Positions 645-22,418 of a stretch of 64,000 nt of DNA are shown piece after piece. The DNA is taken from NCBI GenBank assembly GCA_947259365.1, contig CAMYMC010000019.1, forward strand, positions 62,001 through 126,000. The letters are read 5' to 3'. This DNA is from an uncultured Acidimicrobiaceae bacterium (GTDB lineage Bacteria; Actinomycetota; Acidimicrobiia; Spongiisociales; UBA5794). The notes below the pieces were generated by a model, which saw only the letters and a program-made list of their open reading frames with translations, made no database searches and was not told where the DNA came from. The position numbers and the translations under genes were made by a program. The first letter of the stretch is position 1. Every line of letters begins with the position of its first letter.

Positions 645-1457
645 TCATTGCGCCGATGCGCTCACCTTCATCTTCTCCAGCCGTTGCTGGGCCAACAGCG
701 CCGCACCGTAGGCGCCGGCGTAGGCGCCGAGTCCGTCCGGCGGGACGAGGAACGGCGACCCCAGGATCTCCTCGAGCTGCTGGGACAGCAGCTTCACTGT
801 CGCCAGACCGCCGGTGAGGGCGAAGGGCGGCTCCGCCTTCACCCGTTTCACGAGCTGCGCGGCCCGGTCGGTGAGGGCGATGACGGCCCCGGCGCAGACG
901 TCCTCGATGCTGCGGTCGGCGGCGAGATGGTTGATGATCTCCGACTCGGCGAAGACCGTGCAGACGCTCGACACCGTTACCGGGTCGGTCGCCGCTTCCG
1001 ACAGCGGGGCGATGTCGGTGACGTCGTATCCGAGGTATTTCACCGTCTTCTGGAGGAACGCCCCGGCCCCGGCGGCGCACTTGTCGTTGAGGCGGAACCC
1101 GAGCACCCGCCCGTTCTCGTCCATGCGCAGCGCCTTCACCGTCTGCCCGCCGGCGTCGAGGACGGTGCGGACCTCGGGGAGCCAGCGATGGGTGGCGACG
1201 GCGTGGCAGGTGAGCTCGGTGATCGACAGGTCGCTGATCTCCGCCGCGTAGCGGCCGAATCCGGTCGACGCGATGTACTCGAGCTCGTCGCGGTCGACGC
1301 CTGAGCCATCGAGCGCGGCGACGAGGCCCTTCTCGGCCGCCTTGGCGAAGTGGAACCCGGTCGGGCCCATCGACTTGCCCTTGATGTCGCCGTCGCCGTC
1401 GACAATGACGACCTTCGTGTAGCTCGACCCGAGATCGATGCCTGCGGTGAACGTCAT
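645..1457 (-). CDS. bcrD: ATP-dependent benzoyl-CoA reductase, ATPase subunit BcrD/BzdQ type
   Basis: 270 aa of the BadF/BadG/BcrA/BcrD ATPase family (acetate kinase/Hsp70-like fold). It opens with the phosphate-binding GIDLGSSYTK. The two family cysteines that bind the [4Fe-4S] cluster shared between the two ATPase subunits are present in NDKCAAG and in SVCTVFAESEI. The protein would hydrolyse ATP to push low-potential electrons from ferredoxin into the BcrB/BcrC ring-reducing half. Its ATG overlaps the bcrA stop (ATGA), so translation is probably coupled. The length fits the short ATPase subunits of this enzyme class. The 2-hydroxyacyl-CoA dehydratase activator is the main alternative family, but those systems have one ATPase gene, not two. 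Confidence 0.85.
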   Translation of the reverse strand: MTFTAGIDLGSSYTKVVIVDGDGDIKGKSMGPTGFHFAKAAEKGLVAALDGSGVDRDELEYIASTGFGRYAAEISDLSITELTCHAVATHRWLPEVRTVLDAGGQTVKALRMDENGRVLGFRLNDKCAAGAGAFLQKTVKYLGYDVTDIAPLSEAATDPVTVSSVCTVFAESEIINHLAADRSIEDVCAGAVIALTDRAAQLVKRVKAEPPFALTGGLATVKLLSQQLEEILGSPFLVPPDGLGAYAGAYGAALLAQQRLEKMKVSASAQ

Positions 1458-2263
1458 GCCGGTGCCCCCCTTTCTGCGAACGCCCCGGTCCGGACCTGAT
1501 CGAGCGCGTAGAGCGCGGCGCCGATCGCTCCGCAGTAGTGCGATTCCTCACTCGTGTTGACCTGTACGCCGGCCATCTCCGAGATGAGCTCGACCATCGC
1601 CGAGTTCCTCGTCACCCCTCCGGTGAAGGTCACCTCCGGCTCGATGCCGGCTCGCCGCAGCAGCGACATCGAGCGCGACGCGATAGCGACGTGCACGCCC
1701 ATGACGACGTCCTCGATCCGTCGCCCCTTGGCGAGCCATCCCAGGATCTCCGACTCGGCGAAGACCGTGCACGTCGTCGTCATCTTCACCGGGTTCTTCG
1801 CGGTCTGGGCGAGCGGGCCCAGCTCACCGAGCGGCATCTCGAGGGCGTCGGAGGCGGCGCCGAGGAACCGTCCCGTTCCCGCCGCGCACTTGTCGTTCAT
1901 GTTGAAGTCGATGACCTGGCCGTCGGTGCCGACCTTGATCGCCTTCGTGTCCTGACCACCGATGTCGAGGACGCTCCTCGTGTTCGGGAACAGATGGACT
2001 GCGCCTCGGCCGTGGCAGGAGATCTCGGTGACCTGCGCGTCCCCGAACTGGATGCGGAATCGTCCGTACCCGGTGCCCACGACGAACGCGACGTTGGTTT
2101 CCGAATACGGGGTCTCGGCGAGCGCCAGGTTGAACGCGGTCTGCCCGGCCTCGTCGAGCTTGGCCCCGGTGGGGCACAACCCGTGGCCGAGCATCTCGTG
2201 CCTGTCGGACATGATGACGGCCTTGGTCTGTGTCGACCCTACGTCTACGCCTGCTACCAGCAT
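1454..2263 (-). CDS. bcrA: ATP-dependent benzoyl-CoA reductase, second ATPase subunit BcrA/BzdP type
   Basis: 269 aa, homologous to its downstream neighbour. The phosphate-1 motif is GVDVGSTQTK near the N-terminus; VGTGYGRF follows, then NDKCAAGTGRF and TTTCTVFAESEI with the two cluster-binding cysteines. Two paralogous ATPase genes side by side are the hallmark of class I benzoyl-CoA reductase, whose ATPase half is a heterodimer. As I recall, the Thauera BcrA is much longer (about 48 kDa) while Azoarcus BzdP is short, so this copy looks BzdP-like. It starts 4 nt after the bcrB stop and overlaps bcrD by 4 nt. Confidence 0.85.
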   Translation of the reverse strand: MLVAGVDVGSTQTKAVIMSDRHEMLGHGLCPTGAKLDEAGQTAFNLALAETPYSETNVAFVVGTGYGRFRIQFGDAQVTEISCHGRGAVHLFPNTRSVLDIGGQDTKAIKVGTDGQVIDFNMNDKCAAGTGRFLGAASDALEMPLGELGPLAQTAKNPVKMTTTCTVFAESEILGWLAKGRRIEDVVMGVHVAIASRSMSLLRRAGIEPEVTFTGGVTRNSAMVELISEMAGVQVNTSEESHYCGAIGAALYALDQVRTGAFAERGAPA

Positions 2264-2267
2264 GTGA

Positions 2268-3572
2268 TCACGCTCCTACCTGCACGCGCCTGCTCTGCAG
2301 GGCCTCGAAGAATGCATCGACCCGGTTCTTCAGCTGCGCCTCGGCCCACAGCCGTGAGTCGACGAGATCCGACTGGATGAACAGCCCGGGGATGTCCTCG
2401 TTGCGCATGAGCCACTCCCGGGCGTCGGGAAGGCCCGCAGAGGTCGTCCTGCACGACTTCACTCCGTGGTAGGCGATCCCGTCGATGGCGTAGTCCCGCA
2501 CCACGTTCGCCTGCCACTCGTGGGAGAAGAAGATCCCGCTCATCGACGGCTGGGCGGTGATGAGGATCTGTTCGGCGAGGCTCTCCACCGGTCTCGAGAG
2601 GTCGTAGTGGACGCCGCGGTCGATCCCGCCGCCGGCGTAGGACATGTACTCGCTGGCGACGAACACCCCGTTCCACTGCTCGAAGAGGCCGACGAAGTCC
2701 CGGAAGTTCGTGTAACACGCGGTGCCGACGAGGAGCAGCCGGAACTGCTCCGGTGACACCGCCCCGACGCCTTTGTCGATCCGCTCGTCGAGCTCGGCGA
2801 GCGCCGTCTCCATGAAGCGCACCCCGTCCTCGCGTCCCCGCAGGATGTTGGCGATCCCCATGTAGTTGATGCCCTCAGTGAGCGCATTGAATGGTGCCGG
2901 CCGGTGCTTGTTCGTGGCGAGGATGGCCCGGTACAGCTCCGACATCCGGTTGACGTTGTCGAGGATCTCGCGAAGCTTGTCGATGTCGAACGTCTTGCCG
3001 GTCACCTCCTCGCACAGGGCGATGAGCTCTCGGAGCTGGCCCTCGACGAACTTCACGTCGTTCTTGAACGTCTCGCTGCCCATGTCGTAGGCGAACCCGG
3101 TCCCCCGCCAGCCGGGCAGGTCGAGGACGAACACCGGGCACTCGTACTGGCGTTCCCAGATCTCCGACCACTTGATGTACGTGTTGCACATGTTGGTGGC
3201 GACGACCATGCCGGGCTTCGGGTAGCGGCCCAGGGGGTGCTGGCGGCCGGTGAGATGCAGCCCGACGTCGACCTTGACGTAGCCGCAGATGTCCGGGGAG
3301 TAGCCGGCGTCCTCTGCGGCGAGCAGGTAGTCCATCGCCTTGCCCTTGACCGCGGTCTGCAGTGAGGCGATCTCGGGGAAGCTCATCGGGATGTCGAACG
3401 TGTTGAGAATCTCGGCGAGCGAGCCCATGACGAAGACGTTGGCGACGAGCGAATCCTCCTCGGCCGCCGCGTCCAGCTCCGTCCACCACCGGTCCATGAG
3501 CCGGCGGCTCTCGCCCCGGGTGTCCCCCGCCCGCTCCAGGGGCGGTCGTATGGCAACTCTGTGCTCTTTCAC
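2268..3572 (-). CDS. bcrB: Benzoyl-CoA reductase, large catalytic subunit BcrB/BzdO type
   Basis: 434 aa of the HgdB/BcrB/BcrC family that binds benzoyl-CoA and [4Fe-4S] clusters. Visible landmarks include MSFPEIASLQTAVKGKAMDY, YSPDICGYVK (Cys about 96), VVATNMCNTY (Cys about 129) and a late GVKSCRTTSAG. The length matches BcrB rather than the shorter 2-hydroxyglutaryl-CoA dehydratase subunits. The GTG start at 3572 has an excellent ribosome site (AGGAGG), and the gene follows bcrC after 9 nt. With BcrC it forms the ring-reducing half of the cytoplasmic complex that converts benzoyl-CoA to a cyclohexadienoyl-CoA. Confidence 0.87.
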   Translation of the reverse strand: MKEHRVAIRPPLERAGDTRGESRRLMDRWWTELDAAAEEDSLVANVFVMGSLAEILNTFDIPMSFPEIASLQTAVKGKAMDYLLAAEDAGYSPDICGYVKVDVGLHLTGRQHPLGRYPKPGMVVATNMCNTYIKWSEIWERQYECPVFVLDLPGWRGTGFAYDMGSETFKNDVKFVEGQLRELIALCEEVTGKTFDIDKLREILDNVNRMSELYRAILATNKHRPAPFNALTEGINYMGIANILRGREDGVRFMETALAELDERIDKGVGAVSPEQFRLLLVGTACYTNFRDFVGLFEQWNGVFVASEYMSYAGGGIDRGVHYDLSRPVESLAEQILITAQPSMSGIFFSHEWQANVVRDYAIDGIAYHGVKSCRTTSAGLPDAREWLMRNEDIPGLFIQSDLVDSRLWAEAQLKNRVDAFFEALQSRRVQVGA

Positions 3573-3581
3573 TGCCGCCTC

Positions 3582-4742
3582 CTATACGAACTCGAACAAG
3601 AGCGACTCGGCGAAGGTTTCGATCTCCATCCGGACCTGCTCGAAGTTGGCCGTCTTCTCCTCGAACTCCATGACGAGGTGGGGGATCCCCGCCTCGGTGA
3701 GGGCGTTGTCGTAGGCAACCTGCTCCTCGAGGCCCGGCTCGCACATCTTGGCGGCGCCGACGATGGCGGCCTGGGCCCCGGAGTTTCGGATGCGCTCGAG
3801 GAGCATGTGCTCCTTTGGCTTGCGGGGGTCGCGCTGTACCGGGCTGTAACTCGATGCCTCGAGATACGCCACGGCGAGGTTCTCCATGGGGTTGCCGTCG
3901 GACGGAACGTCCTCGAGGATCCAGCGGAGCCCGATGAGGAAGTCGTCGTCGACGATGTAGGCGACGTCCTGGAGGACGGAGAGCATCTCGATGGGCGGCT
4001 GCTCGCAGAATCCGCCCTCGAAGACGAGGCGGATCTTGTCCTGCGGCTTGTTCGTGCGCTCCCTGATCTGGGGCAGCGCCTCGCGCAGGAGCTCGTTGTG
4101 GCGCTCTCGGGGCATGACACCGGCGGCCCTGGTGAGGACGTAGCCCTCGACGAGGCTCAGCAGCCACGGCGTGTTCCTTCGGATCTCGTACAGCTCGCGC
4201 AAGAGCCTGCGGTTCTCGTTGAAGAGCTCGATGCTCGCTCGCAGCGCTTCGTCGGTGATACCCCGCCCGGTGATCTCTTCGATGAGCCCGGCGATGCGCC
4301 GGTACTCGTTGAGCAGGTACGTCGCGGCGTGGGGCGAGGCGGCGTTGTGGGGGTAATAGAGGATCTGGCAGCTGACGTCGGGGAACTTCCTCGTCCAGAT
4401 CCCGTTGACGTGGCGGGCGGCGTCACAGATCGGGTGGGTGACGTACATGGAGAGGAAGTCGAGCTTGCCGGAGAGGGCCTGCTCGAGCGCGCTCCGCAGG
4501 ATCGAGCACACGAACGCGGCGATGTGGGCGTCGGCCTCGCGGATCTGGACGCTGCTGTCGGCCCCCATGGTCTTGATGGGGAGCATCCCGGCGGCGTGGG
4601 CGATCTCTTCGGGGAAGTAGACCTGGAAGTGACCGAGGACCTTGCCGTCGGGGTTCGCCTCGAGCCATTCGTGAACGGCCGGGTAGTCGGGGTCCTCCAC
4701 CGCGTTCCGACACTCCTCGATGATGTCGCCGAGCTCGGTCAT
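3582..4742 (-). CDS. bcrC: Benzoyl-CoA reductase, catalytic subunit BcrC/BzdN type
   Basis: 386 aa of the HgdB/BcrC family, the usual size for BcrC/BadD/BzdN. Cysteines that can ligate a [4Fe-4S] cluster lie at about 79 (FVCSIL), 106 (HPICDAAR) and in GGFCEQPP. It is the first gene of the minus-strand operon bcrC-bcrB-bcrA-bcrD, the same order as known class I benzoyl-CoA reductase operons. The ATG at 4742 lies just downstream of a compound promoter with a 7-2-7 inverted repeat and a TetR-like palindrome. Substrate specificity (benzoyl-CoA versus hydroxy- or methyl-benzoyl-CoA) cannot be read from sequence; the neighbouring 4-hydroxybenzoyl-CoA reductase argues for benzoyl-CoA. Confidence 0.87.
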   Translation of the reverse strand: MTELGDIIEECRNAVEDPDYPAVHEWLEANPDGKVLGHFQVYFPEEIAHAAGMLPIKTMGADSSVQIREADAHIAAFVCSILRSALEQALSGKLDFLSMYVTHPICDAARHVNGIWTRKFPDVSCQILYYPHNAASPHAATYLLNEYRRIAGLIEEITGRGITDEALRASIELFNENRRLLRELYEIRRNTPWLLSLVEGYVLTRAAGVMPRERHNELLREALPQIRERTNKPQDKIRLVFEGGFCEQPPIEMLSVLQDVAYIVDDDFLIGLRWILEDVPSDGNPMENLAVAYLEASSYSPVQRDPRKPKEHMLLERIRNSGAQAAIVGAAKMCEPGLEEQVAYDNALTEAGIPHLVMEFEEKTANFEQVRMEIETFAESLLFEFV

Positions 4743-4764
4743 ACGCCCTCCACCCTCGAGATCC

Positions 4765-4782: not shown

Positions 4783-4783
4783 A

Positions 4784-4812: not shown

Positions 4813-4834
4813 TCCGCTGTTCGCGTCACATTCG

Positions 4835-5486: not shown

Positions 5487-8081
5487 CTATGTGGGTCTCG
5501 CGCCGGGCCGGTCTTCGAGAACTCCCAGCTCTCGGGCACTCTGAACGGCCCGATTCCGGTCCGAGGCCTTCAGCTTTGTGATCACCGCCGAGACGTGGTG
5601 CTCGGCGGTTCTGGGAGACACGAACAACTCCTCGGCGATCCGGATGTTGGAGAGCCCCTTCGCCATCAGATCGAGGACCTCAGCCTGTCTGGGGGTCAGG
5701 CCTGCCGGGTGTCGGCGGGTCTGCGGCCTCGGGCCTCTCGGGACACCCTGGGCGCCGGCTTGGCGGAGCGCGGAACGAAGGCGTGAAGCCATGGGAATCG
5801 CTCCGAGCTCGTCGAAGATCCGCAGCGCTTCGAGCTTGGCGTCGTTGTCTCCGTCGGCGAGTGCGATGGCTCGCATGTAGGGGTCACCGAGCTCCATCCA
5901 CATCCGAGCTGCTTCACTCCATTGGCCCTCGATCTGGAGGCGATGCGGGTCCGCCGAGAGCTCGAGCGGGCCGGACAGGATCCCGAGCTTCCAGAGCCAG
6001 AACCCGAGCTCGCTCGCGCTCCAGGGCCATGTCTCGGCCATGACGTCGATCGCTGCGACTGCGGCAGCACCGTCCTCAACAGAGCGACCTGCGAGCCAGT
6101 ACGCCTCGGCGACGATCCTCCAGGTCTCGGCTTGCACATCGGGACCCAGCCTCGAGGCCGCTTCGATTCCCTTCTCGAGGGTTGCTTCCCACGGGCCGCC
6201 GCGTCTGGCGAGAATCTGGGCGAGGACCATGAGCGGCTCTTCGATGAAGGGGTGCTGGTTGGCGATCAGGATCTCGAGAGCGGCCTCGGTGTCCTCCTCG
6301 GCCTCAGTCCATCGGCCCCGATCGACACGGAGCCAGGCGCGAGCGGTCAGAGCTGCGGCCTCCGCGTTGGTGCTCCCGAGGCCGCGTGCCAGGAGCATCG
6401 ACTCCTCGATCTTGCGTTCCGCAGTTCGGTAGTCGCGATACATGTGAGCGACGAGCCCGGCGAACAGGACAGCGTCGAACGCCGTCTCGCGACTCCCGCC
6501 CTCCTCTCCAGCCGTGATGCTCTCCTCCAGCAGGGCGAGCGTGCCCGGGAAGTCGGTGCGCATGAGCGCGGACGCCTTGACCCTCAGTGCGTGAGACGTT
6601 GCCAGGAGATCCGGTTCTAGAGCAGCCAGGGCGATGGCGCGATCGGCGAGCTCATCCGCCCTCGCGAAATCTCGGTCGAAGCTCACCATGACGGCGTAGA
6701 CGCTGTAGGCAAAGGCCAGCCCTGGCTGTCCGGAAGGCTCGCTGAGGAGGTCAACCGCTTCAACGATGGCCGCCTCGGCTAGATCCTTGTGTCCGAGTCG
6801 CCTCTCGCAGAGGGCGACTTTCGCAAGCACGCTTGCGACCCCAGCCGGGTTGTGGACCGATCGGTACAGATCGATCGCTTCCCTCCCCAGTTTGGGGATG
6901 GAAGCGAGGGTTCCCGAGTGCGACTCTTCGGAGATCCTGGCTTCGAGGAGCTCCGCCCGCAGAGACGGCTCCAGCTGGTCGAGCAGCGGCTCCAAGAGAA
7001 GGTGATGAGCCATCGCCTCTCGATGGTTCCCCGCCTCGGCGGCTGCCAAGGCAGCTTCGGGTCCGAACCGGACGATGGCGTCGGTGTCGCCCGCGGCGTG
7101 GGCGTGGTGCACGATGCGGGGAGCTGCTCCCTCCCCGGCAGCAAGAGCGTCGACGACCACTTGGTTGTTGTGCCGTCGTTCCTCGTCGCTGAGGGAGGTC
7201 TCCACCGCGAGGCGGGCCAGTTCGTGACGGAACCTCACTCCATCGTCTGAGATTTCCAGGACCCGACGCTGCTCACACTCGGCCAACGGTTCGGCCATGT
7301 CGTTCACGGCCTCCGCCAGCAGCCAGCGCTCCGTCTTCGATGGGACGACGGATACCAAACCCGCCAGCTTTCGGGCCTCGGGGGTCAACCGGGCGAGCCG
7401 AGCGAGGTACACGTTCTGGATGGAGGCGGGAACGGGTCTGGTCGGGTCGGCAAGCAGCTCGGTGACCAGCAGAGGGTTGCCGCCGGCCAAGGCGAGGGAC
7501 GGGTCATCCGCCAGGCCTCGCTCGGCAGCCAGGTGCGACACCGCCTCCAGTGACAATGGCCCGAGCCGGATTCTCACGATCGAGCCGCTCGGCAGGTCGC
7601 CGAGCACCGCCCGCAGCCCCCCCTCGGTCGGGACCTCCTCATCCCGATACGTCAACAACAACACCCCATGGGCCTCCGGTATGCGGCGCCCGGCATAACG
7701 GATCGCGTCCAACGTCGCGTCATCGGCCCAATGGGTATCTTCGATCACAACCACCGTCGGTCGCAGCTGCCGAGCGAACAGATCGACCAGCGCCCGGAAC
7801 ACCCCGATCCGTTCACCCCGTTGCAGAGCTTCGAGCAACGCCCCGTCTCCAGCGGTCATGTCCCAGAGTGGCGCCAACGGAGCCGGTGTGAACAAGTCGT
7901 CGCAGCCACCCCACAACACCCGCGCGTCACCTTCGACCTCTGAGGTGAATCGACGCACCAACGCAGTCTTCCCGATTCCGGCCTCGCCCCGAACCAGGAC
8001 CACCGAACCCGCGCCGTCACGGGCGCGCTCCAAAGCATCTCGAAGCTGCTGTAGCTCGGCGTCACGCTCGAGGAGCTCCAT
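5487..8081 (-). CDS. LuxR-family ATP-binding transcriptional regulator (LAL/MalT-like)
   Basis: 864 aa. The N-terminal AAA-type ATPase has a Walker A GEAGIGKTAL near residue 30 and a Walker B VVVIEDTHWAD. A long TPR-like helical middle follows, and the C-terminal LuxR helix-turn-helix begins LTPRQAEVLDLM and continues through SPRTAEHHVSAVITKL. Large LAL proteins sense an inducer through the middle region and activate transcription when ATP is bound. The start ATG at 8081 has no clear ribosome site. It lies downstream of hcrB on the same strand, separated by 107 nt that contain a hairpin. It could control the adjacent aromatic operons, but nothing in the sequence shows its target. Confidence 0.85.
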   Translation of the reverse strand: MELLERDAELQQLRDALERARDGAGSVVLVRGEAGIGKTALVRRFTSEVEGDARVLWGGCDDLFTPAPLAPLWDMTAGDGALLEALQRGERIGVFRALVDLFARQLRPTVVVIEDTHWADDATLDAIRYAGRRIPEAHGVLLLTYRDEEVPTEGGLRAVLGDLPSGSIVRIRLGPLSLEAVSHLAAERGLADDPSLALAGGNPLLVTELLADPTRPVPASIQNVYLARLARLTPEARKLAGLVSVVPSKTERWLLAEAVNDMAEPLAECEQRRVLEISDDGVRFRHELARLAVETSLSDEERRHNNQVVVDALAAGEGAAPRIVHHAHAAGDTDAIVRFGPEAALAAAEAGNHREAMAHHLLLEPLLDQLEPSLRAELLEARISEESHSGTLASIPKLGREAIDLYRSVHNPAGVASVLAKVALCERRLGHKDLAEAAIVEAVDLLSEPSGQPGLAFAYSVYAVMVSFDRDFARADELADRAIALAALEPDLLATSHALRVKASALMRTDFPGTLALLEESITAGEEGGSRETAFDAVLFAGLVAHMYRDYRTAERKIEESMLLARGLGSTNAEAAALTARAWLRVDRGRWTEAEEDTEAALEILIANQHPFIEEPLMVLAQILARRGGPWEATLEKGIEAASRLGPDVQAETWRIVAEAYWLAGRSVEDGAAAVAAIDVMAETWPWSASELGFWLWKLGILSGPLELSADPHRLQIEGQWSEAARMWMELGDPYMRAIALADGDNDAKLEALRIFDELGAIPMASRLRSALRQAGAQGVPRGPRPQTRRHPAGLTPRQAEVLDLMAKGLSNIRIAEELFVSPRTAEHHVSAVITKLKASDRNRAVQSARELGVLEDRPGARPT

Positions 8082-8127
8082 CAATGCAAAGTTACCCGTC
8101 GAGTCGCACCCGTTCCTCGGCCGATCG

Positions 8128-8157
8128 CGGGCAACCCGCGTGCGGGCACGTTGCCCG
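8128..8157. terminator. Hairpin between hcrB and the LAL regulator
   Basis: CGGGCAAC (8128-8135) pairs perfectly with GTTGCCCG (8150-8157); the 14-nt loop can form an inner CCGC/GCGG stem. It lies 32 nt past the hcrB stop and could end the hcr operon transcript. No U-tract follows, so intrinsic termination is uncertain. Confidence 0.4.
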
Positions 8158-8188
8158 TCGGCGATCTCGAACGCAGCCCGTCTTCGCC

Positions 8189-14773: not shown

Positions 14774-14796
14774 GCGCGCTCCTATTCCCGGACCCA

Positions 14797-14814
14797 ACCG
14801 TCCGGCCGTTCGGT
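14797..14814. promoter_or_regulatory. TetR-type palindrome at the hcr operon promoter
   Basis: On the minus strand the 18 bases ACCGAACGGCCGGACGGT are identical to the site at 22553-22570 and differ at two positions from 17024-17041. The palindrome ACCG-NN-CGGCCG-NN-CGGT lies between the putative -10 and the ATG at 14773, a repressor position. The TetR protein at 29015-29638 is the likely binder. Confidence 0.65.
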
Positions 14815-14827
14815 CGACTCCCTGCAA

Positions 14828-15031: not shown

Positions 15032-16339
15032 ATGGCGTTCACATACTTCGACCGGGAGCTGGAAACCCTCGAGCCGGAGCGGCTGCGCCGGCTCCAGGCG
15101 GACAAGCTCGGAGCGATGTTGGGCGAGCTCCACGGCACGAACGCGTTCTACACCGCCAAGCTCGACGGTGCCGGCGTCGGCGTCGAGGACGTGAGATCGC
15201 TCGACGAGCTCGCCTACCTGCCGTTCACGACGAAGGCCGAGCTCCTCGGCGCCCAGGAGGAGGCCGGAGGGTGGAGCACGAACGCAACGTACCCCGAGGC
15301 CGCGTACACCCGGTTCCACCAGACCTCGGGGACGACGGGCGTGCCGCTTCGCGTGTTCGACACCGCCGATTCGTGGGAGTGGTGGAGCCGGTGCTGGGCC
15401 TTCGTCCTCGCCGGCGCCGCGGTCGGTTCGGGCGACCGGCTCATCCTTCCGTTCTCCTTCGGCCCATTCATCGGGTTCTGGGCCGCGGTCGGGGCCGCGG
15501 AGAAGCTCGGCGTGCTCATGATCCCGGGCGGGGGCCGCGGATCGCTGGAGCGGCTCCACCTCATGCGCGCGCTCGGCGTGACGGCGATGTGCTGTACGCC
15601 GACGTATGCCCTGCGGCTCGCCGAAGTCGCCAGGGAGGAGGGGTTCGACCTGACCGACATCCCGATGCGGGTGACGATCCACGCCGGGGAGCCGGGCGCC
15701 AACGTCCCGTCGACGAAGGCGAAGATCGAGGCCGCCTGGGGTGCGAGGTGCTACGACCACGTCGGCGCCTCCGAAGTCGGGGCCCACAGCTTCGAGTGCG
15801 AGGCCCAGCCGGGGGGGACCCACTTCAACGACAGCGAGTTCATCGCCGAGGTAGTCGATCCGGAGAGTGGCGACCCGGTGCCCCCCGGCGAGCAGGGCGA
15901 GCTCGTCATCACGACCCTCGGCCGCTGGTGCTTCCCGGTGATCCGGTACCGCACCGGTGACGTCGTGAAGGTGTCGACGTCGCGGTGTGCCTGCGGCCGC
16001 ACGTTCACCCTCTTCGACGGAGGCGTCATCGGGCGTGCCGACGACCTCGTCGTCGTCCGCGGGGTGAACGTGTTCCCGGCCGCCGTCGAGAACCTCATCC
16101 GCAAGCATGCCGGCATCGACGAGTTCCGCGTCACCGTCGACCGCCGCACCGAGATGGCGGAGCTCGTCGTCGAACTCGAGTGCATGGAGGGTGTCGATGA
16201 ACCCGTGATCTGCCGGGCGATCGAGCTCGAGTTCCAGAGCGTGCTCGGGCTGCGGCCCGAGGTCGCGGTGGTGGCGCGGGGCGCGCTGCCGCGATTCGAT
16301 CACAAAGCGAGGCGATTCGTCACCGTCGCGGATTCGTGA
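15032..16339 (+). CDS. Aryl-CoA ligase, phenylacetate-CoA ligase (PaaK) family
   Basis: 435 aa, AMP-forming adenylate-forming enzyme. The phosphate loop is QTSGTTGVPLRV near residue 97, and the hinge region RYRTGD is near 309. A cysteine pair follows (SRCACGRTF), as in many PaaK-like proteins, with a PaaK-type C-terminal domain. It activates an aromatic acid to its CoA thioester with ATP. In this context the fitting substrate is 4-hydroxybenzoate (product of the UbiD-type carboxylase) or benzoate; this is inference from neighbours. It is transcribed divergently from the hcr operon across a shared regulatory region. Confidence 0.8.
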   Translation: MAFTYFDRELETLEPERLRRLQADKLGAMLGELHGTNAFYTAKLDGAGVGVEDVRSLDELAYLPFTTKAELLGAQEEAGGWSTNATYPEAAYTRFHQTSGTTGVPLRVFDTADSWEWWSRCWAFVLAGAAVGSGDRLILPFSFGPFIGFWAAVGAAEKLGVLMIPGGGRGSLERLHLMRALGVTAMCCTPTYALRLAEVAREEGFDLTDIPMRVTIHAGEPGANVPSTKAKIEAAWGARCYDHVGASEVGAHSFECEAQPGGTHFNDSEFIAEVVDPESGDPVPPGEQGELVITTLGRWCFPVIRYRTGDVVKVSTSRCACGRTFTLFDGGVIGRADDLVVVRGVNVFPAAVENLIRKHAGIDEFRVTVDRRTEMAELVVELECMEGVDEPVICRAIELEFQSVLGLRPEVAVVARGALPRFDHKARRFVTVADS

Positions 16340-16354
16340 GAGGCGGCGGCGACA

Positions 16355-16382
16355 CCGGGCCGGGATCTCAACCGGGGCCCGG
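16355..16382. terminator. Possible bidirectional terminator between convergent genes
   Basis: CCGGGCC (16355-16361) and GGCCCGG (16376-16382) can pair around a 14-nt loop. It lies between the ligase stop and the stop of the convergent flavoprotein gene, overlapping the latter's last codons. No U-tract is present. Confidence 0.35.
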
Positions 16383-16835
16383 GTCGATCTCGTCGCGATG
16401 GCCGAGCCCCAGCGAGTTGTCGATGAAGAAGACGCGGTCGGTCTCGACGACGTACCAGTCGACCTTGCCGAGGGCGCGGGCGATCTCCAGTGACGCCCCG
16501 GCCGCCCCGCCGATGACAGGGAACTTCTCCCGGTAGCGGGCGATCGCATCCCGGCGGGCCCGACCGTCGATGCGGGAGGCCACGCCTTCGAACTGGACGC
16601 CGCGAATGTCGCGCCAGTCGTCGTAGTCCTCCTGGATGGTGCCGGCGACCGCCGGCCGTGCGGCGATGTTGCGGCTGTGGCGCGTGGTGGGCGCCGAGAG
16701 GAACCAGAAGGTGAAGCCCTCGCTCACGTAGAACAGCGCAGCCGCCCACAGCCCCTCGGGCCCGTCGGTGGCGAGCGTCATCACGTTGTGAGCGGCGACG
16801 TAGACGAGCGCTTCGTCGCGCGCCGAGCGGGTCAA
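16368..16835 (-). CDS. Pyridoxamine 5'-phosphate oxidase-like (FMN split-barrel) protein
   Basis: About 155 aa. The split-barrel pattern is visible: an N-terminal helix, NVMTLATDGPEGLWAA, FWFLSAPTTRHSRNIAARP, then GVQFEGVASRI. Members bind FMN, F420 or heme, and most have unknown roles. The start is uncertain: a TTG at 16835 begins where family members usually begin, while an in-frame ATG at 16979 lies within the regulatory elements of the divergent gene and gives an Arg/Ser-rich leader, so I prefer 16835. It is convergent with the ligase gene. No specific substrate can be given. Confidence 0.6.
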   Translation of the reverse strand: MTRSARDEALVYVAAHNVMTLATDGPEGLWAAALFYVSEGFTFWFLSAPTTRHSRNIAARPAVAGTIQEDYDDWRDIRGVQFEGVASRIDGRARRDAIARYREKFPVIGGAAGASLEIARALGKVDWYVVETDRVFFIDNSLGLGHRDEIDPGPG

Positions 16836-16949
16836 CGCAGCCGTCCCGTTCTCGCGGCTGGTGTCACGGCCGCCTTCCTCGGATGCTCGCCCGTACCGTA
16901 TCCCCCGTGACGGGCGCGCGCACGACGCGCCCCGGCTCCACACCGAGGG

Positions 16950-16978
16950 TGAGTCGTTTGCACCACGGAAATGATGCA
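16950..16978. promoter_or_regulatory. 7-2-7 element plus extra half-site upstream of the ubiD operon
   Basis: TGAGTCG-TT-TGCACCA (16950-16965; the left half is degenerate) lies 22 nt before the -35 at 16988. Six nt further on is a second heptamer TGATGCA (16972-16978), the same layout as at 22479-22507. Confidence 0.55.
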
Positions 16979-16987
16979 CCGGCAGGA

Positions 16988-17126: not shown

Positions 17127-18554
17127 ATGCCGTACGCCGATCTGCGCGAGTTCATCGACCGCCTCGAGGCCGAGAGCCAGCTGAGGTACGTCGACAAGGA
17201 GGTCGACTGGAACCTCGAGCTGAGCCACGTGGCCAAGCTCAACGAGGAGCAGCAGGGTGGCGGCTCCGCACTCGTGTTCAGCAACATCAAGGAGCACCCG
17301 GGCCGGCGGGTGTTCACGAGTGCTCTCACCGCCCGGGAGCGGCTCGCTCTCGCCCTCGAGATGCCGCTCACGACGAGCCTCATGAACCTGTCCCAGGAGT
17401 GGGTCGACCGGATCCACAACAACCGGGTGTCCCCGGAGGTCGTCTCCAGCGGGGCCTGCCAGGAGAACGTCGTGGCTGGCGACGACGTCGACCTCGGGAC
17501 GGTTCCGGCGCCGTGGTTCTACCCCGGTGACGGGGGCCGGTACCTCGGCACCGGTGGGTTCCTCATCTCGAAGAGTCTGAGGACGGGCCGTCACAACCTC
17601 GGAACGTACCGGGCGATGGTCGGGGACAAAGACCGGCTGTGCATCTACATGATCAAGGCGAAAGACGGCGAGATCGACTTCCGCGACTACATCGAGGCCG
17701 GGATCCCGATGCCCGTCGCCTACATCTCGGGCACCGACCCGACATTGTTCATGTGTGCGAGCACGCTGTTCGGTCTCGATGAGTCCGAGTACGACGTCGC
17801 CGGCGCGCTGCGCGGCAAGCCGGTCGACGTCGTGAAGGCGACGACGTCCGACCTCCTCGTGCCTGCCACCGCCGAGTACGTCATCGAGGGCGAGATCGTC
17901 CCCGGAGAGACGATGCCGGAGGGCCCGTTCGGCGAGTACACCGGTCACTACTCCGGCAAGGGGGACGAGGAGCAGTACTTCATCCGCGTGAAGGCGATCA
18001 CGCATCGCAACGACCCGATTCTGTGGGCGACCACGGTGGGCCGGCCGACGACCGACACCCACATGATCATGGGTGTGAACCGGACGGCATCGCTGTGGAA
18101 CGACCTCAAGCAGATGCAGATCCCGGGCATCAAGTCGGTGTACGGGCCGCCGGCGTCGGCCGGGCGGATGCTCGTCATCATCTCGATGACGCCGATGTAC
18201 CACGGACACTCGACCCAGGTCGGGCTGGCAGCGTTCGCCTCGGTCACGGGGAACTACGGCCTCAAGACGGTCATCCTCGTCGACGACGACATCGACCCGG
18301 AGAACATGGACCAGGTCATGTATGCGCTGAGCTTCAAGTACCAGCCGGAGTTCGGCACCCAGATCCTGCGACGGGGACGGTCGACACCGCTCGATCCTTC
18401 GCTGCCGAGGTCCGACCGCTTCATGACGTCGCGCATCATCATCGACTGCACGACGCCGTACGAGTGGGGGGACACAGACCGGCCGCACCGGATCTATCTC
18501 GACGACGACATGGCGGCGCACGTCAAGGCGAACTGGGACGGCTACTTCGAATAA
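17127..18554 (+). CDS. UbiD-family carboxylase, phenylphosphate carboxylase-like (PpcA/PpcB)
   Basis: 475 aa of the UbiD decarboxylase family, full length. The conserved MPEGPFGEYTGHYSG is near residues 261-275; VVGRPTTDTHMIMG follows. UbiD enzymes reversibly (de)carboxylate aromatic acids with prenylated FMN. In anaerobic phenol degradation two UbiD-like subunits of phenylphosphate carboxylase turn phenylphosphate and CO2 into 4-hydroxybenzoate. The genes right behind it (a HAD phosphatase and two phenylphosphate-synthase subunits) fit that role closely. Only one UbiD-like gene and no small gamma subunit are seen here. The ribosome site AAGGAGGG precedes the ATG. A plain hydroxyarylic-acid decarboxylase is the alternative. 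Confidence 0.82.
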   Translation: MPYADLREFIDRLEAESQLRYVDKEVDWNLELSHVAKLNEEQQGGGSALVFSNIKEHPGRRVFTSALTARERLALALEMPLTTSLMNLSQEWVDRIHNNRVSPEVVSSGACQENVVAGDDVDLGTVPAPWFYPGDGGRYLGTGGFLISKSLRTGRHNLGTYRAMVGDKDRLCIYMIKAKDGEIDFRDYIEAGIPMPVAYISGTDPTLFMCASTLFGLDESEYDVAGALRGKPVDVVKATTSDLLVPATAEYVIEGEIVPGETMPEGPFGEYTGHYSGKGDEEQYFIRVKAITHRNDPILWATTVGRPTTDTHMIMGVNRTASLWNDLKQMQIPGIKSVYGPPASAGRMLVIISMTPMYHGHSTQVGLAAFASVTGNYGLKTVILVDDDIDPENMDQVMYALSFKYQPEFGTQILRRGRSTPLDPSLPRSDRFMTSRIIIDCTTPYEWGDTDRPHRIYLDDDMAAHVKANWDGYFE

Positions 18555-18590
18555 CCCGCCACGGCGGGGACGTCCCGGAGAGAGGGAGCG

Positions 18591-19418
18591 ATGAGGAACG
18601 GGATCGAGGGCGTTGTCTTCGACATCGACGGGACGGTCGTGCGGGGCAAACGCGTTCTGCCCGGTGTCGTCGACACCCTCGCCGAGTTGCGGAGCCGCCG
18701 GATCCGGTTCGCCTTCATGACGAACGACAACTCCAACACCGTCGCCACGTGGACGGGCCGGCTCGCCGCCATGGGGATCGAGGTGACCTCGGACGAGGTC
18801 GTGACGTCGGCGATCATCGCCGCCGACGTCACCGCCGACCTCTACCCGGAGGCGTCGATCATGGCGGTGGGCGCTCCGGGGCTCATCGAGGCGCTCCGGT
18901 CGCGCGGGCTGAGACTGGTTGCCGAGGGCGAGGCTCCCGAGGTCGTCGTCATGGGCAAGGACCCGGAGTTCGACCAGGCACGACTCCGGGTCGTCTGCGA
19001 CGCGATCTGGTCGGGTGCCGAGTTCGTCGCCACGAACTACGACCCGCGGATCCCGACGACGGACGGCTTCGTCCCCGCCACCGGGCCCATGGTCAAAGCG
19101 GTCGCCTACGCGACCGGGAGGGAGCCGCTCGTCACCGGCAAGCCGTCGCACTGGTCCGGCATCGTCGCCGCCAGGACGGTCGGCGTGGCTCCGGACGCGG
19201 CTGCGATGGTCGGAGACCAACTCGCCACCGACATCGCCATGGGCAACAAGGCCGGGATGCTGACCGTCCTCGTCCTCACGGGCGACGCAACCCGGGACGA
19301 CGCGGACGCAGCCGTGGGGGAACTGAAGCCGGACGTCGTCCTCGAGGATGTCGGCCGGCTCGTGCCGTGGATGGACGGCGCGCGTGAACACGAGGTGACC
19401 GGAGGCCCGATGGCCTGA
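18591..19418 (+). CDS. HAD-IIA (NagD-like) phosphatase, candidate phenylphosphate carboxylase delta subunit
   Basis: 275 aa haloacid-dehalogenase phosphatase. Motif I is VFDIDGTV (nucleophile Asp 11, Asp 13), motif II is AFMTNDNSN, Lys is in LVTGKPS, and motif IV is MVGDQLATDIAMG, with a NagD-type cap domain between. HAD proteins of this kind hydrolyse phosphomonoesters. As I recall, the delta subunit (PpcD) of Thauera phenylphosphate carboxylase is a HAD phosphatase, and the position between the UbiD-type and PEP-synthase-like genes supports that equivalence. A housekeeping sugar-phosphate phosphatase cannot be excluded. Confidence 0.78.
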   Translation: MRNGIEGVVFDIDGTVVRGKRVLPGVVDTLAELRSRRIRFAFMTNDNSNTVATWTGRLAAMGIEVTSDEVVTSAIIAADVTADLYPEASIMAVGAPGLIEALRSRGLRLVAEGEAPEVVVMGKDPEFDQARLRVVCDAIWSGAEFVATNYDPRIPTTDGFVPATGPMVKAVAYATGREPLVTGKPSHWSGIVAARTVGVAPDAAAMVGDQLATDIAMGNKAGMLTVLVLTGDATRDDADAAVGELKPDVVLEDVGRLVPWMDGAREHEVTGGPMA

Positions 19419-19447
19419 TCCGGGGAGAGGACGAGCGAGGGGAACGC

Positions 19448-20593
19448 GTGGCGAACGACGACAGGTACGTCATCGCCCTCCAGGTGTGTGACGAGGGACG
19501 CATCGACACCGTCGGCGGTAAGAGCGCCGGCCTCGGCCGCATGATGCGGGCGGGAGTGCCGGTGCCGGCGGGCTTCGCCATCAGCTCCGAGGCATACACG
19601 TCGATGCTGTCCTCCGGCGACGTCGCCGCCGAGGTCTCGACGCTCGCCGCGAGCGTCGACCCGATCGACGTGGAAGGGCTCGAGGCCACGAGCCGGAAGA
19701 TCAGGGAGATCATCGAGCGGGCCCCGATCCCTGCGGAGGTGGAGACGTCCGTTCGACACGCCTACGCCGAGCTCTGCATGGCTGCGGCGGCATCCGATTC
19801 CCACCTCCCGGTCGCCGTTCGCTCCAGCGCCACCGCGGAGGACCTGCCCGAGGCGAGCTTCGCAGGCCAGCAGGACACGTTCCTCTGGGTGGTGGGAGCC
19901 GACGACCTCCTCGATCACGTGAGGCGGTGCTGGTCGAGCCTGTACACCGGCCGGGCGATGGCGTACCGCCTGGAGAACGGCTTCGGTCACGACAGGGTGC
20001 GGATGAGCGTCTGTGTCCAGAAGATGGTCGACGCCCGCGCCGCCGGTGTCATGTTCACCCTCAACCCCATCAACGGGGACCGATCCAAGGTGGCGATCGA
20101 TGCGAGCTGGGGGCTCGGTGAGGCGGTGGCCTCGGGCGAGGTGACCCCCGACAACTACCTCGTCGACAAGGTCACCCTCGACGTCGTTCGGCGCACGATC
20201 TCGTCGAAGGCCATCGAGTACAGGCCGGTCCCTGCCGAACGGCGCGTCGAGCGCGTCGCCGTCGGGCCCGAGCGCCGCGAGGCGCCGTGCATTTCCGACG
20301 AGGAGCTCATCGTGCTGGCGGTCCATGCCAAGGCGATCGAAGCCGAAGCGGGGGCGCCCCAGGACCTCGAGTGGGCGATCGAGGCCGGCGGCGACCCGCC
20401 GGCCAACGTCGTGCTGCTCCAGACCCGCCCCGAGACGGTGTGGAGCGGGCGCGACCGGGCGACCGTGACCGAAGGCGGGCGCTCGGCGATGGACAACATC
20501 GTCGCGAATCTCATCACGGGCGTGCGCATCCGCGCCGCGCCACCGCGACCAGACACACCCGAATCGGCAAGCAGCCCGGCCCAAGGAGAGTGA
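19448..20593 (+). CDS. ppsB: Phenylphosphate synthase subunit (PEP-synthase N-terminal ATP-grasp-like domain)
   Basis: 381 aa, corresponding only to the N-terminal nucleotide-binding part of PEP synthase. TVGGKSAGLGRM is near the start, AVRSSATAEDLPEASFAGQQDTFL follows in the first half, and GVMFTLNPINGD plus a QTRPET end complete the domain. The phosphohistidine and PEP-binding domains of ordinary PEP synthase are missing, so it cannot be PpsA of gluconeogenesis. The split matches phenylphosphate synthase, in which a 40-kDa subunit of this type works with a 70-kDa subunit to convert phenol and ATP to phenylphosphate, AMP and Pi. It stops one base before the start of its partner. Confidence 0.85.
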   Translation: MANDDRYVIALQVCDEGRIDTVGGKSAGLGRMMRAGVPVPAGFAISSEAYTSMLSSGDVAAEVSTLAASVDPIDVEGLEATSRKIREIIERAPIPAEVETSVRHAYAELCMAAAASDSHLPVAVRSSATAEDLPEASFAGQQDTFLWVVGADDLLDHVRRCWSSLYTGRAMAYRLENGFGHDRVRMSVCVQKMVDARAAGVMFTLNPINGDRSKVAIDASWGLGEAVASGEVTPDNYLVDKVTLDVVRRTISSKAIEYRPVPAERRVERVAVGPERREAPCISDEELIVLAVHAKAIEAEAGAPQDLEWAIEAGGDPPANVVLLQTRPETVWSGRDRATVTEGGRSAMDNIVANLITGVRIRAAPPRPDTPESASSPAQGE

Positions 20594-20594
20594 C

Positions 20595-22418
20595 ATGGCA
20601 GAGACCCGTTTCCCGAGCCCGTTCGAGGTCCCGACCCCGGAGGGCTGCGAGGGGTGGGAGGAGCTCTACCCCTACTACTACCTCTTCAGCGAGGAGCGTC
20701 GCGAGTTCGAGGACTCGAAGTTCTGGTTCTTCGACGGTATGCACCACCCGGAGGTGCTGTATCCCTTCGACACGATCACGAGCGAGAGCTGGTGGGTGGC
20801 GCTCGGCGAGATGAACTCGCGGGTGTACATCGTCCCGCCGGCGCTCGGCATCGACCAGAGGGTGCTCAACGGCCGCCTCTACATCAGCGCCAACGCGATC
20901 ATGGACGAGGAGGTCGTCGGCGCCCGCGTCGCCCATTTCATGGATCGGGCCGGGTACTACTACGAGCACTGGGACGAGCTGTTCGAGAAGTGGAAGACGA
21001 AGGCGACCGAGACGGTCGAGGAGCTCAAGGCGATCGAGGTCCCTGCGCTCCCGGAGATGGAGGCGCTCGACACCGTGCGCAGCGGCCGCGGCATCACCTC
21101 GGCCTACGACCTCTTGACGGCCTACAACCGGGTCATCGAGAACATGCACAAGATCTGGCACTTGCACTTCGAGTTCCTCAACCTGGGGTACGCCGCGTAC
21201 CTGACGTACTTCGGCCTGTGCAAGCAGCTGTTCCCCGACATCGCGGACCAGACGGTGGCGCAGATGGTCGCCGGCATCGACGTGCTCTTGTTCCGACCGG
21301 ACGAGGAGCTGAAGAAGCTCGCCCGCAAGGCGGTCGAGCTCGACGTCGCCCACGTGTTCGAGTCGCGTGATGATCCAGAAAAGGTCATCACGGCACTCGA
21401 GGGCACCGATGCCGGTAGGCGCTGGATCGCCGAGCTGGAGAAGGCGCGGGATCCGTGGTTCTACTTCTCGACCGGCTCCGGCTTCTATCACCACCACAAG
21501 ACGTGGATCAACGACCTCACCTTCCCCTTCGAGGGGATCGCGGACTACATCTCCCGCATTCAGGCGGGTGAGGAGATCTCGAGGCCGATGGAGCAGGTGC
21601 AAGCGGAGCGGGATCGACTGGCTGCCGAGTATTCAGCGCTGCTCGAGGGCGACGACCTCAAGAGCTTTCAGGAGCATCTCGGCCTGGCCCGGACGGTGTT
21701 CCCGTTCATCGAGGACCACAACTTCTACGTGGAGCACTGGCACCACGCGGTGTTCTGGAACAAGATGCGCGAGTTCGGCCAGATCTTCGTCGACGCCGGG
21801 TTCTTCGACGAGGTAGACGACATGTTCTACCTCCACCGGTATGAGGTCCAGTCCGCGCTCTACGACCTCATCGCCTCGTGGGGTGTCGGCACCCCGGCGC
21901 GTGGCCCCGGCTACTGGCCGAAGGAGGTCGCGAGGCGCAAGGAACTCTTCGATCGTCTCTCCCAGTGGTCTCCGGTGCCTGCGCTCGGCGAGCCGCCCGA
22001 AGTCGTGACCGAGCCGTTCACGATCATGCTGTGGGGCATCACGACGGACAGCATCCAGAACTGGCTGGGGCTGGGCGCCGATGACGGTGAGACCGACGTC
22101 GCCCTCAAGGGCTTCGCTGCCTCTCCCGGCACGGTGGAAGGACGAGCGCGCGTCATCACGAACGCCGATCAGCTCGGCGAGATCCTCGACGGCGAGATCC
22201 TCGTGTGCCCGATCACGAACCCGAGCTGGGGCCCGGTCTTCTCCAAGATCGGGGCCGCCGTCACCGACATCGGCGGGATGATGTCCCACGCTTCGATCGT
22301 GTGCCGTGAGTACGGCGTCCCGGCGGTGGTCGGCACCGGGTTCGGGACGAAGTCGATCACGACCGGCCAGATGCTCCGGGTCGACGGGTCGGCGGGAACG
22401 GTCGCCGTGCTCGACTGA
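20595..22418 (+). CDS. ppsA: Phenylphosphate synthase, phosphohistidine subunit (PpsA type)
   Basis: 607 aa (about 70 kDa). A large Trp/Tyr/His-rich N-terminal region precedes a C-terminal PEP-utilizing mobile domain with GGMMSHASIVCREYG, whose His (about residue 565) is the phosphate carrier. The size and domain layout are those I recall for the Thauera phenylphosphate synthase alpha subunit; the companion gene upstream is the ATP-binding subunit. The pair would transfer the beta-phosphate of ATP through the His to phenol. The start ATG has AAGGAG 5-6 nt before it. The third regulatory subunit (PpsC, CBS domains) is not seen in the window. Confidence 0.85.
   Translation: MAETRFPSPFEVPTPEGCEGWEELYPYYYLFSEERREFEDSKFWFFDGMHHPEVLYPFDTITSESWWVALGEMNSRVYIVPPALGIDQRVLNGRLYISANAIMDEEVVGARVAHFMDRAGYYYEHWDELFEKWKTKATETVEELKAIEVPALPEMEALDTVRSGRGITSAYDLLTAYNRVIENMHKIWHLHFEFLNLGYAAYLTYFGLCKQLFPDIADQTVAQMVAGIDVLLFRPDEELKKLARKAVELDVAHVFESRDDPEKVITALEGTDAGRRWIAELEKARDPWFYFSTGSGFYHHHKTWINDLTFPFEGIADYISRIQAGEEISRPMEQVQAERDRLAAEYSALLEGDDLKSFQEHLGLARTVFPFIEDHNFYVEHWHHAVFWNKMREFGQIFVDAGFFDEVDDMFYLHRYEVQSALYDLIASWGVGTPARGPGYWPKEVARRKELFDRLSQWSPVPALGEPPEVVTEPFTIMLWGITTDSIQNWLGLGADDGETDVALKGFAASPGTVEGRARVITNADQLGEILDGEILVCPITNPSWGPVFSKIGAAVTDIGGMMSHASIVCREYGVPAVVGTGFGTKSITTGQMLRVDGSAGTVAVLD

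Follow-up and report, generated by a model that had tools for sequence, protein, structure and literature searches.

An acidimicrobial gene cluster that may break down phenol without oxygenases and with a substituted ring-opening step

How might a bacterium that reduces the ring of benzoyl-CoA go on to open it when neither Oah nor Had, the canonical enzymes for these steps, is found above cut-off in its genome? The question is raised by the window analysed here, a stretch of 64,000 nucleotides (G000:C19:62001-126000) from a metagenome-assembled genome (MAG) of 3.34 Mb that is 94.4% complete and whose same-family relatives are Acidimicrobiia, a class of Actinomycetota. The window encodes a benzoyl-CoA reductase (BCR), and directly downstream of its genes, across the left edge of the window, lies a module of three genes for an IpdA-like and an IpdB-like subunit and a BadH-like short-chain dehydrogenase/reductase (SDR). 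On balance we favour, with moderate confidence, the reading that this locus is a chromosomal acidimicrobial cluster for the oxygenase-free breakdown of phenol and 4-hydroxybenzoate in which the ring-opening step has been substituted. What was observed is the set of genes with their homology and linkage, the residues at the active sites, and that Oah and Had are missing above their cut-offs; from these we infer every substrate and reaction. Below, G-numbers denote genomes (G000, the window's own, and its relatives), L-numbers denote loci, and C denotes a contig.

Benzoyl-CoA reductase and the canonical ring-opening enzymes

The BCR genes form one operon on the minus strand, comprising a BcrD-type activase subunit (645-1457), a BcrA-type activase subunit (1454-2263), a BcrB-type catalytic subunit (2268-3572) and a BcrC-type catalytic subunit (3582-4742). 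Their Pfam matches are far above cut-off (BcrAD_BadFG at 168 bits for BcrD and 215 for BcrA, HGD-D for BcrB and BcrC), and two HGD-D catalytic subunits with two different activase subunits in one operon make up the class I BCR architecture; the gene order C-B-A-D is the same in relatives with enough flank. Among PDB proteins, the four subunits matched those of the 3-methylbenzoyl-CoA reductase MbdONQP one to one. BcrC scored 441 bits with MbdN, 157 with HadC and 125 with BzdN, and BcrB scored 380 with MbdO, 90 with BzdO and 85 with HadB; for the activase subunits, BcrA scored 343 with MbdQ and 211 with a HadI-type activator, and BcrD 204 with MbdP and 168 with such an activator. HadB and HadC here are components of 2-hydroxyisocaproyl-CoA dehydratase, whose activator is of HadI type. 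An earlier note on this DNA had reported the BCR and had named kinship with 2-hydroxyacyl-CoA dehydratases as a finding that would speak against it. We rejected that kinship, as all four subunits score higher with MbdONQP and the BcrC tree agrees. None of the four reached the NCBIfam equivalog cut-offs for the Bcr or Bzd subtypes (BcrC, for example, 296.8 of 421 bits), so we regard the window BCR as a separate subtype and not as Bcr or Bzd in the strict sense. Since genes for HcrABC are present, its substrate is presumably benzoyl-CoA and not 3-methylbenzoyl-CoA; judged by sequence, the enzyme would reduce benzoyl-CoA in a ferredoxin- and ATP-dependent manner.

BcrC matches were present in 19 of 60 genomes (the window's own and 59 relatives), that in G050 being distant at 27%, and a scan of a genome-contig collection gave 332 BcrC relatives, the best 80 of which were analysed as loci. 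By record title, these best 80 of 332 belong largely to Chloroflexota, Gemmatimonadota, Acidobacteriota, Planctomycetota and Actinomycetota, so that the BCR type is not mainly proteobacterial among them, which weakens the earlier view that the set is typical of Proteobacteria and a few other anaerobes; MAG record titles can mislead, as with L043 ('Acidobacteria') and L047 ('Bacillota'). In a BcrC tree of 99 rows, one branch (value 100) has on one side 76 rows and MbdN, which we call clade B, and on the opposite side 20 A rows, the window protein among them, 15 of which form one group (value 99). The very long outgroup branches leave the rooting among the A rows uncertain. Clade A or B was called from whichever of two queries scored higher and then checked on this tree, which was built by a quick method; both were found inside the window's own family. 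BCR in Acidimicrobiia is not itself new, as a 2025 paper reports, in the part available to us, that some members of the acidimicrobial order UBA5794 from marine sediment carry bcrBC (PMC12008989).

Ring-opening genes were compared across a panel of 46 genomes chosen for holding a BcrC relative, made up of 18 of the 19 matching genomes of the relative set (G050 excluded) and 28 of the 80 named loci, which were hand-picked before counting; two further loci were copies of genomes already included. Across the whole of G000, no protein exceeded the NCBIfam cut-off for Oah (best 120 of 464 bits) or Had (122 of 339), and no Dch-like match exceeded 91 bits. Oah was above cut-off in 19 of the 46 genomes, at 524-577 bits with the next score at 215, and Had in 17; G036, which holds Had and an Oah fragment at a contig end, was scored as lacking Oah. 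Both enzymes were also absent above cut-off from G005, G022 and G016, which are 100%, 97% and 95% complete. The Dch cut-off does not discriminate, since it was reached in none of 20 genomes examined, Oah-bearing ones included. Dch-like scores among these genomes were 196-239 bits in G007, G008, G024, G060 and G082 (clade-B or Oah-bearing), 171 in G068, 118 in G066 and at most 109 in 11 module genomes.

The IpdA-IpdB-SDR module

The IpdA-like alpha subunit is encoded directly downstream of BcrD at positions 1-574, where the window edge cuts the gene (whole gene, C19:61699-62574). Outside the window follow the IpdB-like beta subunit (C19:60938-61705), the BadH-like SDR (C19:60185-60928) and, beyond it, a TetR gene, all on the minus strand like IpdA. 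The IpdA-like protein, at 47-100% identity, occurs in 14 of the 46 genomes, the next-best matches being at most 37%; IpdB adjoins it in all 14, and the SDR in 12, with a contig end or N stretch in the other two. Oah and the module were found together in none of the 46 genomes (Fisher p 1.6e-4, uncorrected for ancestry), nor were Had and the module, and the module state and the Oah state both occur inside the window's own family. Genomes with an A-type BCR (n=17) hold the module in 11 cases, Oah in two (G060, G061) and neither in four, and those with a B-type BCR (n=29) hold the module in three, Oah in 17 and neither in nine. At the level of the 80 named loci, an IpdAB-like pair lies near Bcr in 10 of 17 A loci (flank beyond BcrD is absent in four of the 17) versus 0 of 63 B loci, and Oah at 45% identity or more lies near Bcr in 0 of 17 A loci and 9 of 63 B loci. 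The module adjoins BCR genes in 11 of its 14 genomes, with the crotonase ECHc12 (see below) in between in five of these. In two B-type Actinomycetota it sits on the BCR contig, about 17 kb away in G079 and about 22 kb away in G086, where the same stretch holds PrpF, thiolase, OB, ECH, Kor, Ior and HMGL genes, and in G085 it adjoins HcrCAB.

This distribution bears on the alternative that standard Oah and Had genes sit in the unassembled 6% of G000 and that the module is unrelated to the step. The completeness of 94.4% leaves room for this, and the BCRs nearest the window's (L041, L042) come from Oah-bearing genomes; yet the more complete G005, G022 and G016 likewise lack Oah and Had, as do all 14 module genomes above cut-off, and we consider such an explanation highly improbable.

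Type I CoA-transferases require a beta-subunit glutamate (Glu54 of GctB). This Glu is replaced by Gly in all 15 module genomes read (the 14 and that of L116). Rhodococcus IpdAB (IpdAB_RHA1) has Gly57 at the same position and, in the part of the source available, is reported to have no transferase activity (PMC5380842). Among distant paralogues with a readable beta subunit, 10 of 12 keep [YF]E-x-G, read by eye since pairwise alignments slip; 4 of 16 paralogue loci yielded no beta subunit. As for the alpha subunit, Glu105 of IpdA is said in the 2018 IpdAB structure paper to act as a base. At its position all 14 module proteins have Glu, whereas GctA has Gln there and AibA has Gly; PDB entry 6coj is the E105A variant of IpdA. 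The module thus shows both IpdAB features, Gly for Glu in beta and Glu105 in alpha, and once the active sites had been compared we no longer read this left neighbour as an ordinary CoA-transferase, the type I catalytic Glu being absent. The best of 211 NCBIfam families for the SDR was BadH (267 of 431 bits), which in Rhodopseudomonas oxidises the corresponding ring alcohol. Because the known substrate of IpdAB shares the core of Oah's substrate, we propose that the SDR and the IpdAB-like pair replace Had and Oah. We see about an even chance that this constitutes a third way of ring opening, in which a BadH-like SDR and an IpdAB-like hydrolase of CoA-transferase fold take over after ATP-dependent ring reduction, in genomes that by record title belong to Acidimicrobiia, Thermoleophilia, Dormibacterota and other uncultured lineages, and with chemistry shared with steroid catabolism.

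Several observations weigh against this proposal. By sequence, the IpdA-like protein is nearer the decarboxylase AibA (112 bits) than IpdA (95), and the IpdB-like protein nearer GctB (95 bits) than IpdB (79). The module alpha subunits form one clade of 14 (96/99), and this clade groups, weakly (82/75), with both AibA and IpdA, apart from GctA. The predicted fold of the G005 alpha protein (L050; pLDDT 82) resembled AibA, IpdA and GctA to a similar degree (0.81-0.84 for TM by query), with AibA ranked first by E-value; a predicted IpdB-like structure, of mean pLDDT 54, was not used. Glu also stands at the IpdA-105 position in 9 of 15 distant paralogues by pairwise alignment, a count that leaves aside locus L208 and five weaker matches without a locus, so that Glu105 is not diagnostic alone and only its combination with the beta Gly is telling. 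An A-type BCR alone does not bring the module, as the nearest BCRs (G060, G061) have Oah, and 13 of the 46 genomes have neither Oah nor module. Finally, no dienoyl-CoA hydratase was identified in G000.

The likeness to AibA, the best alpha-subunit match by sequence and by fold E-value, suggests that the pair could instead be an AibAB-type glutaconyl-CoA decarboxylase or serve another late step, the ring being opened by an undetected or divergent hydrolase. Glutaconyl-CoA decarboxylation is indeed a late step of benzoyl-CoA degradation, but Oah genomes need that step equally and none of the 19 has the module. AibA, moreover, lacks the Glu shared by the module and IpdA and has Gly in its place, and the linkage to BCR genes in 11 of 14 genomes also argues against a decarboxylase; we regard this role as unlikely.

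Crotonases add to the evidence on the opposing side. Elsewhere in G000 is a BadI-like protein of 336 bits (cut-off 468), and such proteins were found in G062, G063, G064 and G080 as well, the five scoring 272-353 bits; the G062 gene adjoins a BadH-like SDR that is 57% like the window's. In addition, ECHc12, a crotonase of the MenB/BadI/Oah kind, is present in 8 of the 14 module genomes. It lies between BcrD and IpdA in G062, G063, G072, G078 and G080, near the module or BCR at 56-59% in the B-type G079, G085 and G086, and near Bcr in 25 of 63 B loci. The two copies scanned were nearest the MenB, BadI and Oah models, all below cut-off, and the four A-type copies read carry a C-terminal zinc ribbon. 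Where present, ECHc12 may be the hydratase or the ring hydrolase itself. It is absent from six Acidimicrobiia module genomes (G000, G005, G016, G022, G065 and G067), the best match being 46% in G000, which is the BadI-like gene, and 34-36% in the other five; among these six, G000 alone has a BadI-like gene.

Such crotonases would fit a Rhodopseudomonas-like route. In it, ring reduction would proceed further and the SDR would take the part of BadH; 2-oxocyclohexanecarbonyl-CoA would be opened by ECHc12 or a BadI-like crotonase, which would leave the IpdAB-like pair with an accessory role. BadH being the SDR's best family, the five BadI-like proteins with the SDR-adjoining one in G062, and the many BCRs with ECHc12 nearby are consistent with it. 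However, the module genomes G005, G016, G022, G065 and G067 have no BadI-like match above 179-208 bits, a level that is also seen in clade-B genomes and that we read as MenB-like, and they have no ECHc12 (best at most 36%), while no other panel protein matched within 20 kb around the BadI-like gene of G000. We think this route rather improbable; judged by sequence, the ring at cleavage may be either a cyclohexenone or a cyclohexanone. ECHc12 near BCR genes was also seen in Chloroflexota, Gemmatimonadota, Dormibacterota and others (L043, L044, L047, L058, L082, L087, for example at L087:14291-15289, and L116).

Upper pathway, neighbouring genes and host

The enzymes that the earlier note had placed between 645 and 22418 were all found there by Pfam and NCBIfam scans and PDB matches, and both its family assignments and its order of steps from phenol to benzoyl-CoA and ring reduction are supported. 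These labels stand, but Bcr A-D, HcrA and the PpcB-like UbiD did not reach NCBIfam equivalog cut-offs and are therefore divergent members. The interval itself proved too narrow, as the cluster extends on the left to IpdA, IpdB, SDR and TetR and on the right through HMGL, IorA, KorABC, ECH, SDR and aconitase-family genes to about 33.7 kb.

A 4-hydroxybenzoyl-CoA reductase is encoded on the minus strand by HcrB (8189-9178), the molybdopterin subunit HcrA (9154-c.11520, start approximate; the mechanical open reading frame (ORF) runs to 11907) and the [2Fe-2S] subunit HcrC (11541-12044; Fer2_2 and Fer2). HcrA and HcrB were assigned by Pfam. The NCBIfam scan took in Bcr A-D, HcrA, UbiD and PpsA, with HcrB and HcrC outside it, and gave HcrA 864 bits with TIGR03194 (cut-off 994.55) versus 528 for the next family. 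HcrB aligned to Thauera 1rm6_B across the cysteine-bearing [4Fe-4S] insert of the FAD subunit, with the cysteines matched by eye; we take these to be the ligands of the [4Fe-4S] cluster. On the plus strand, a PaaK-type aryl-CoA ligase (15032-16339; Pfam and NCBIfam scans), a candidate 4-hydroxybenzoate-CoA ligase, is of a type that adjoins Bcr in L028, L029, L046, L048 and L050. There follow, on the same strand, a UbiD-type carboxylase (17127-18554) and a HAD-IIA phosphatase (18591-19418; TIGR01460, 133 bits, above cut-off). The best NCBIfam family of UbiD is the phenylphosphate carboxylase beta subunit PpcB (TIGR02724, 413.5 of 469 bits), and not one of the unrelated decarboxylases that the earlier note had allowed for. 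Two copies of UbiX are above cut-off in G000, so prenyl-FMN can be made. The carboxylase part of the cluster thus consists of one UbiD and one HAD-IIA; the cluster of G. metallireducens is likewise reported, in the part of the source available, with only a ppc beta homologue (PMC6114531).

Next to these genes, also on the plus strand, lie the ATP-grasp (PPDK_N) subunit PpsB (19448-20593) and the phosphohistidine-domain subunit PpsA (20595-22418) of a phenylphosphate synthase-like enzyme, which is split and phosphoenolpyruvate-synthase-like, with its PEP-utilizers and PPDK_N domains in adjoining genes. The GGMMSH motif of PpsA is kept in 6 of 6 sequences read. No Pps gamma subunit was seen in the ORFs scanned, and no genome-wide search for it was made; in the accessible part of the source, gamma stimulates the reaction in Thauera (PMC6114531). 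Substrates other than phenol, such as aniline (by a phenylphosphoamidate route) or an alkylphenol, could also be considered for Pps and UbiD. The related kinase CreHI acts on 4-cresol. PpsA passed only NCBIfam models that bear the name 'hypothetical protein' (PRK08296 group), with no match to any model called phenylphosphate synthase in that scan, and in Desulfatiglans anilini the homologous synthase and carboxylase act on aniline, the synthase taking phenol as well, according to the part of the source available (PMC7500099). A true HcrABC with its cysteine-bearing insert in the same cluster and in relatives' clusters fits hydroxyl removal, however, and we find another substrate quite unlikely.

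The PpsB-PpsA-UbiD-HAD cassette recurs in G007 (PpsA 81%, UbiD 81%), and Pps with HAD and UbiD also in G072. Over about 18 kb of G007, genes for HcrA, HcrB, PpsB, PpsA, UbiD, HAD, Had, Oah, Dch and BcrDABC follow in succession; a canonical cluster from phenol to ring opening therefore exists in the window's family, with Pps-UbiD-HAD close to the window's. The BcrC match of this genome (G007:C4:58354-59481, L016) has one in-frame TGA, either an assembly error or a broken gene. A second family of PpsB/PpsA-like pairs occurs in relatives at L150 and L152-L156 (for example G005:C23:130900-132714), with PpsA 56-57% identical to the window's and, in the stretches read, no window-type UbiD adjoining; these are perhaps CreHI-like aromatic kinases.

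Candidates for the steps after ring opening lie on the minus strand between HcrC and the ligase. They are an SCP-x/BbsB-like thiolase (13198-14340; domain and family scans) that may make the cut after ring opening, its ChsH2-type OB-fold partner (14333-14827; domain scan) and an isomerase like PrpF or oxalomesaconate tautomerase (12041-13264, start approximate), which adjoins the thiolase here and in relatives. A PrpF-like gene was seen next to thiolase-OB in several relatives, and also beside Had-Oah in G061 (L160). To the right of PpsA, all on the plus strand, are an HMGL/isopropylmalate-synthase-like (homocitrate-synthase-like) enzyme (22570-23853; domain and family scans), an IorA-type 2-oxoacid:ferredoxin oxidoreductase subunit (23867-25657; TIGR03336, 683 bits, above cut-off), an ORF (25650-26516), and KorA, KorB and KorC (26513-29018, KorA start approximate; domain scan), a 2-oxoacid:ferredoxin oxidoreductase that is a candidate source of reduced ferredoxin. 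A TetR regulator (29015-29638), beside Kor here and in relatives, an enoyl-CoA hydratase (ECH; 30861-31673), a FabG-like SDR (31690-32442, start approximate) and an aconitase-family enzyme (32417-33733; domain scan) complete the series. The ECH and this SDR, assigned to the lower pathway, have the same neighbourhood in relatives; the order Kor-TetR-ECH-SDR is kept in G005, G065 and G067, and parts of the IorA/KorABC set lie near these genes in relatives. In Thauera, a 2-oxoacid:ferredoxin oxidoreductase feeds BCR, and the HMGL-like, aconitase-family and Ior/Kor genes may form a local route that makes reduced ferredoxin. The ECH was considered as the missing dienoyl-CoA hydratase and rejected: in L030 about 5 kb separate a 71% copy from the Had, Oah and Dch genes, which makes a lower-pathway role more likely.

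The remaining neighbours are an AAA/LuxR-type (LAL) regulator between the Bcr and Hcr genes (5487-8190, start approximate, minus strand; Pfam AAA_16 and GerE), a PNPOx-like protein (16368-16979, minus strand) with counterparts close to UbiD or Pps in both L050 and G007, and, right of the cluster, an oligopeptide-type ABC transporter (35092-41433; SBP_bac_5, two permeases and an ATPase). No RNA families or tRNAs were found in the window. Elsewhere, G000 encodes an aa3 oxidase above cut-off (711 bits), and none of five DMSO-reductase-family proteins scanned in it was over cut-off, so that the host need not be an anaerobe. One member of that family in G000 (G000:C6:25406-27253, L173), of at least 1387 aa, is nearest type II DMSO reductase/ethylbenzene dehydrogenase models, far below cut-off.

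The tetranucleotide composition of the cluster correlates at 0.90 with each of two other parts of C19 and at 0.81-0.88 with four other stretches of G000, compared with 0.68 for a Dormibacterota stretch and 0.34 for a Chloroflexi stretch. We therefore rejected the view of the contig as proteobacterial or as a foreign member of the bin; the actinobacterial host of the earlier note is borne out, with Acidimicrobiia as its kin, and the contig does not fall in Thauera-like Proteobacteria. A plasmid search with BcrC returned nine records at 24-32% identity, which we judged uninformative. In the CC-licensed (Creative Commons) literature searched, we found neither a description of a phenol cluster in Acidimicrobiia nor a link of IpdAB to BCR, although a mention inside a full text is possible.

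Proposed route and known systems

In the proposed route, PpsB and PpsA would phosphorylate phenol, and UbiD with prenyl-FMN, together with the HAD phosphatase, would carboxylate phenylphosphate to 4-hydroxybenzoate. The PaaK-type ligase would then form 4-hydroxybenzoyl-CoA, from which HcrABC would take off the hydroxyl, and ATP-driven BcrCBAD, supplied with reduced ferredoxin by Kor/Ior, would convert benzoyl-CoA to a dienoyl-CoA. Once some enoyl-CoA hydratase had hydrated this product, the BadH-like SDR would oxidise the ring alcohol, and the IpdAB-like pair, by its residues no CoA-transferase, would open the ring by retro-Claisen hydrolysis instead of Oah; thiolase-OB and the ECH/SDR pair would finish the chain. 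Oah serves as a marker for the anaerobic degradation of aromatics. Were this route correct, surveys based on Oah would miss module genomes, the real ring opener would be called a CoA-transferase, and one enzyme chemistry would join steroid and anaerobic benzoyl-CoA catabolism. The proposal gives an IpdAB-like family of unknown function a directly testable predicted activity, and the locus places a whole phenol cassette in Acidimicrobiia.

Of the known systems, the anaerobic phenol pathway of Thauera aromatica (also Geobacter metallireducens and Desulfatiglans anilini; PMC6114531, in the part available) shares with the window Pps alpha and beta, UbiD, a CoA ligase and 4-hydroxybenzoyl-CoA reductase followed by benzoyl-CoA reduction. 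The window differs in having one UbiD and HAD-IIA instead of an alpha/beta/gamma/delta carboxylase, in its genome lacking Had and Oah above cut-off, and in its actinobacterial host. MbdONQP (PDB 9g87, 9gai) matches the window BCR subunit by subunit, but in the tree MbdN shares with 76 other rows a branch that excludes the window BcrC. The module is proposed to carry out the steps of Oah (BamA) and Had; these two belong to other families (crotonase and alcohol dehydrogenase types), and none is above cut-off in the 14 module genomes. AibAB (PDB 5mzw) is the nearest alpha-subunit match and likewise a non-transferase of this fold, but AibA has Gly at the Glu105 position and AibAB belongs to another pathway. 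With IpdAB, the COCHEA-CoA ring hydrolase of steroid degraders (PMC5380842, in the part available; PDB 6co6, 6co9), the module has in common the alpha fold, the change of Glu to Gly and the Glu105 position, whereas it is only about 30% identical to the steroid enzyme, is linked to Bcr and Hcr genes and forms its own clade of 14.

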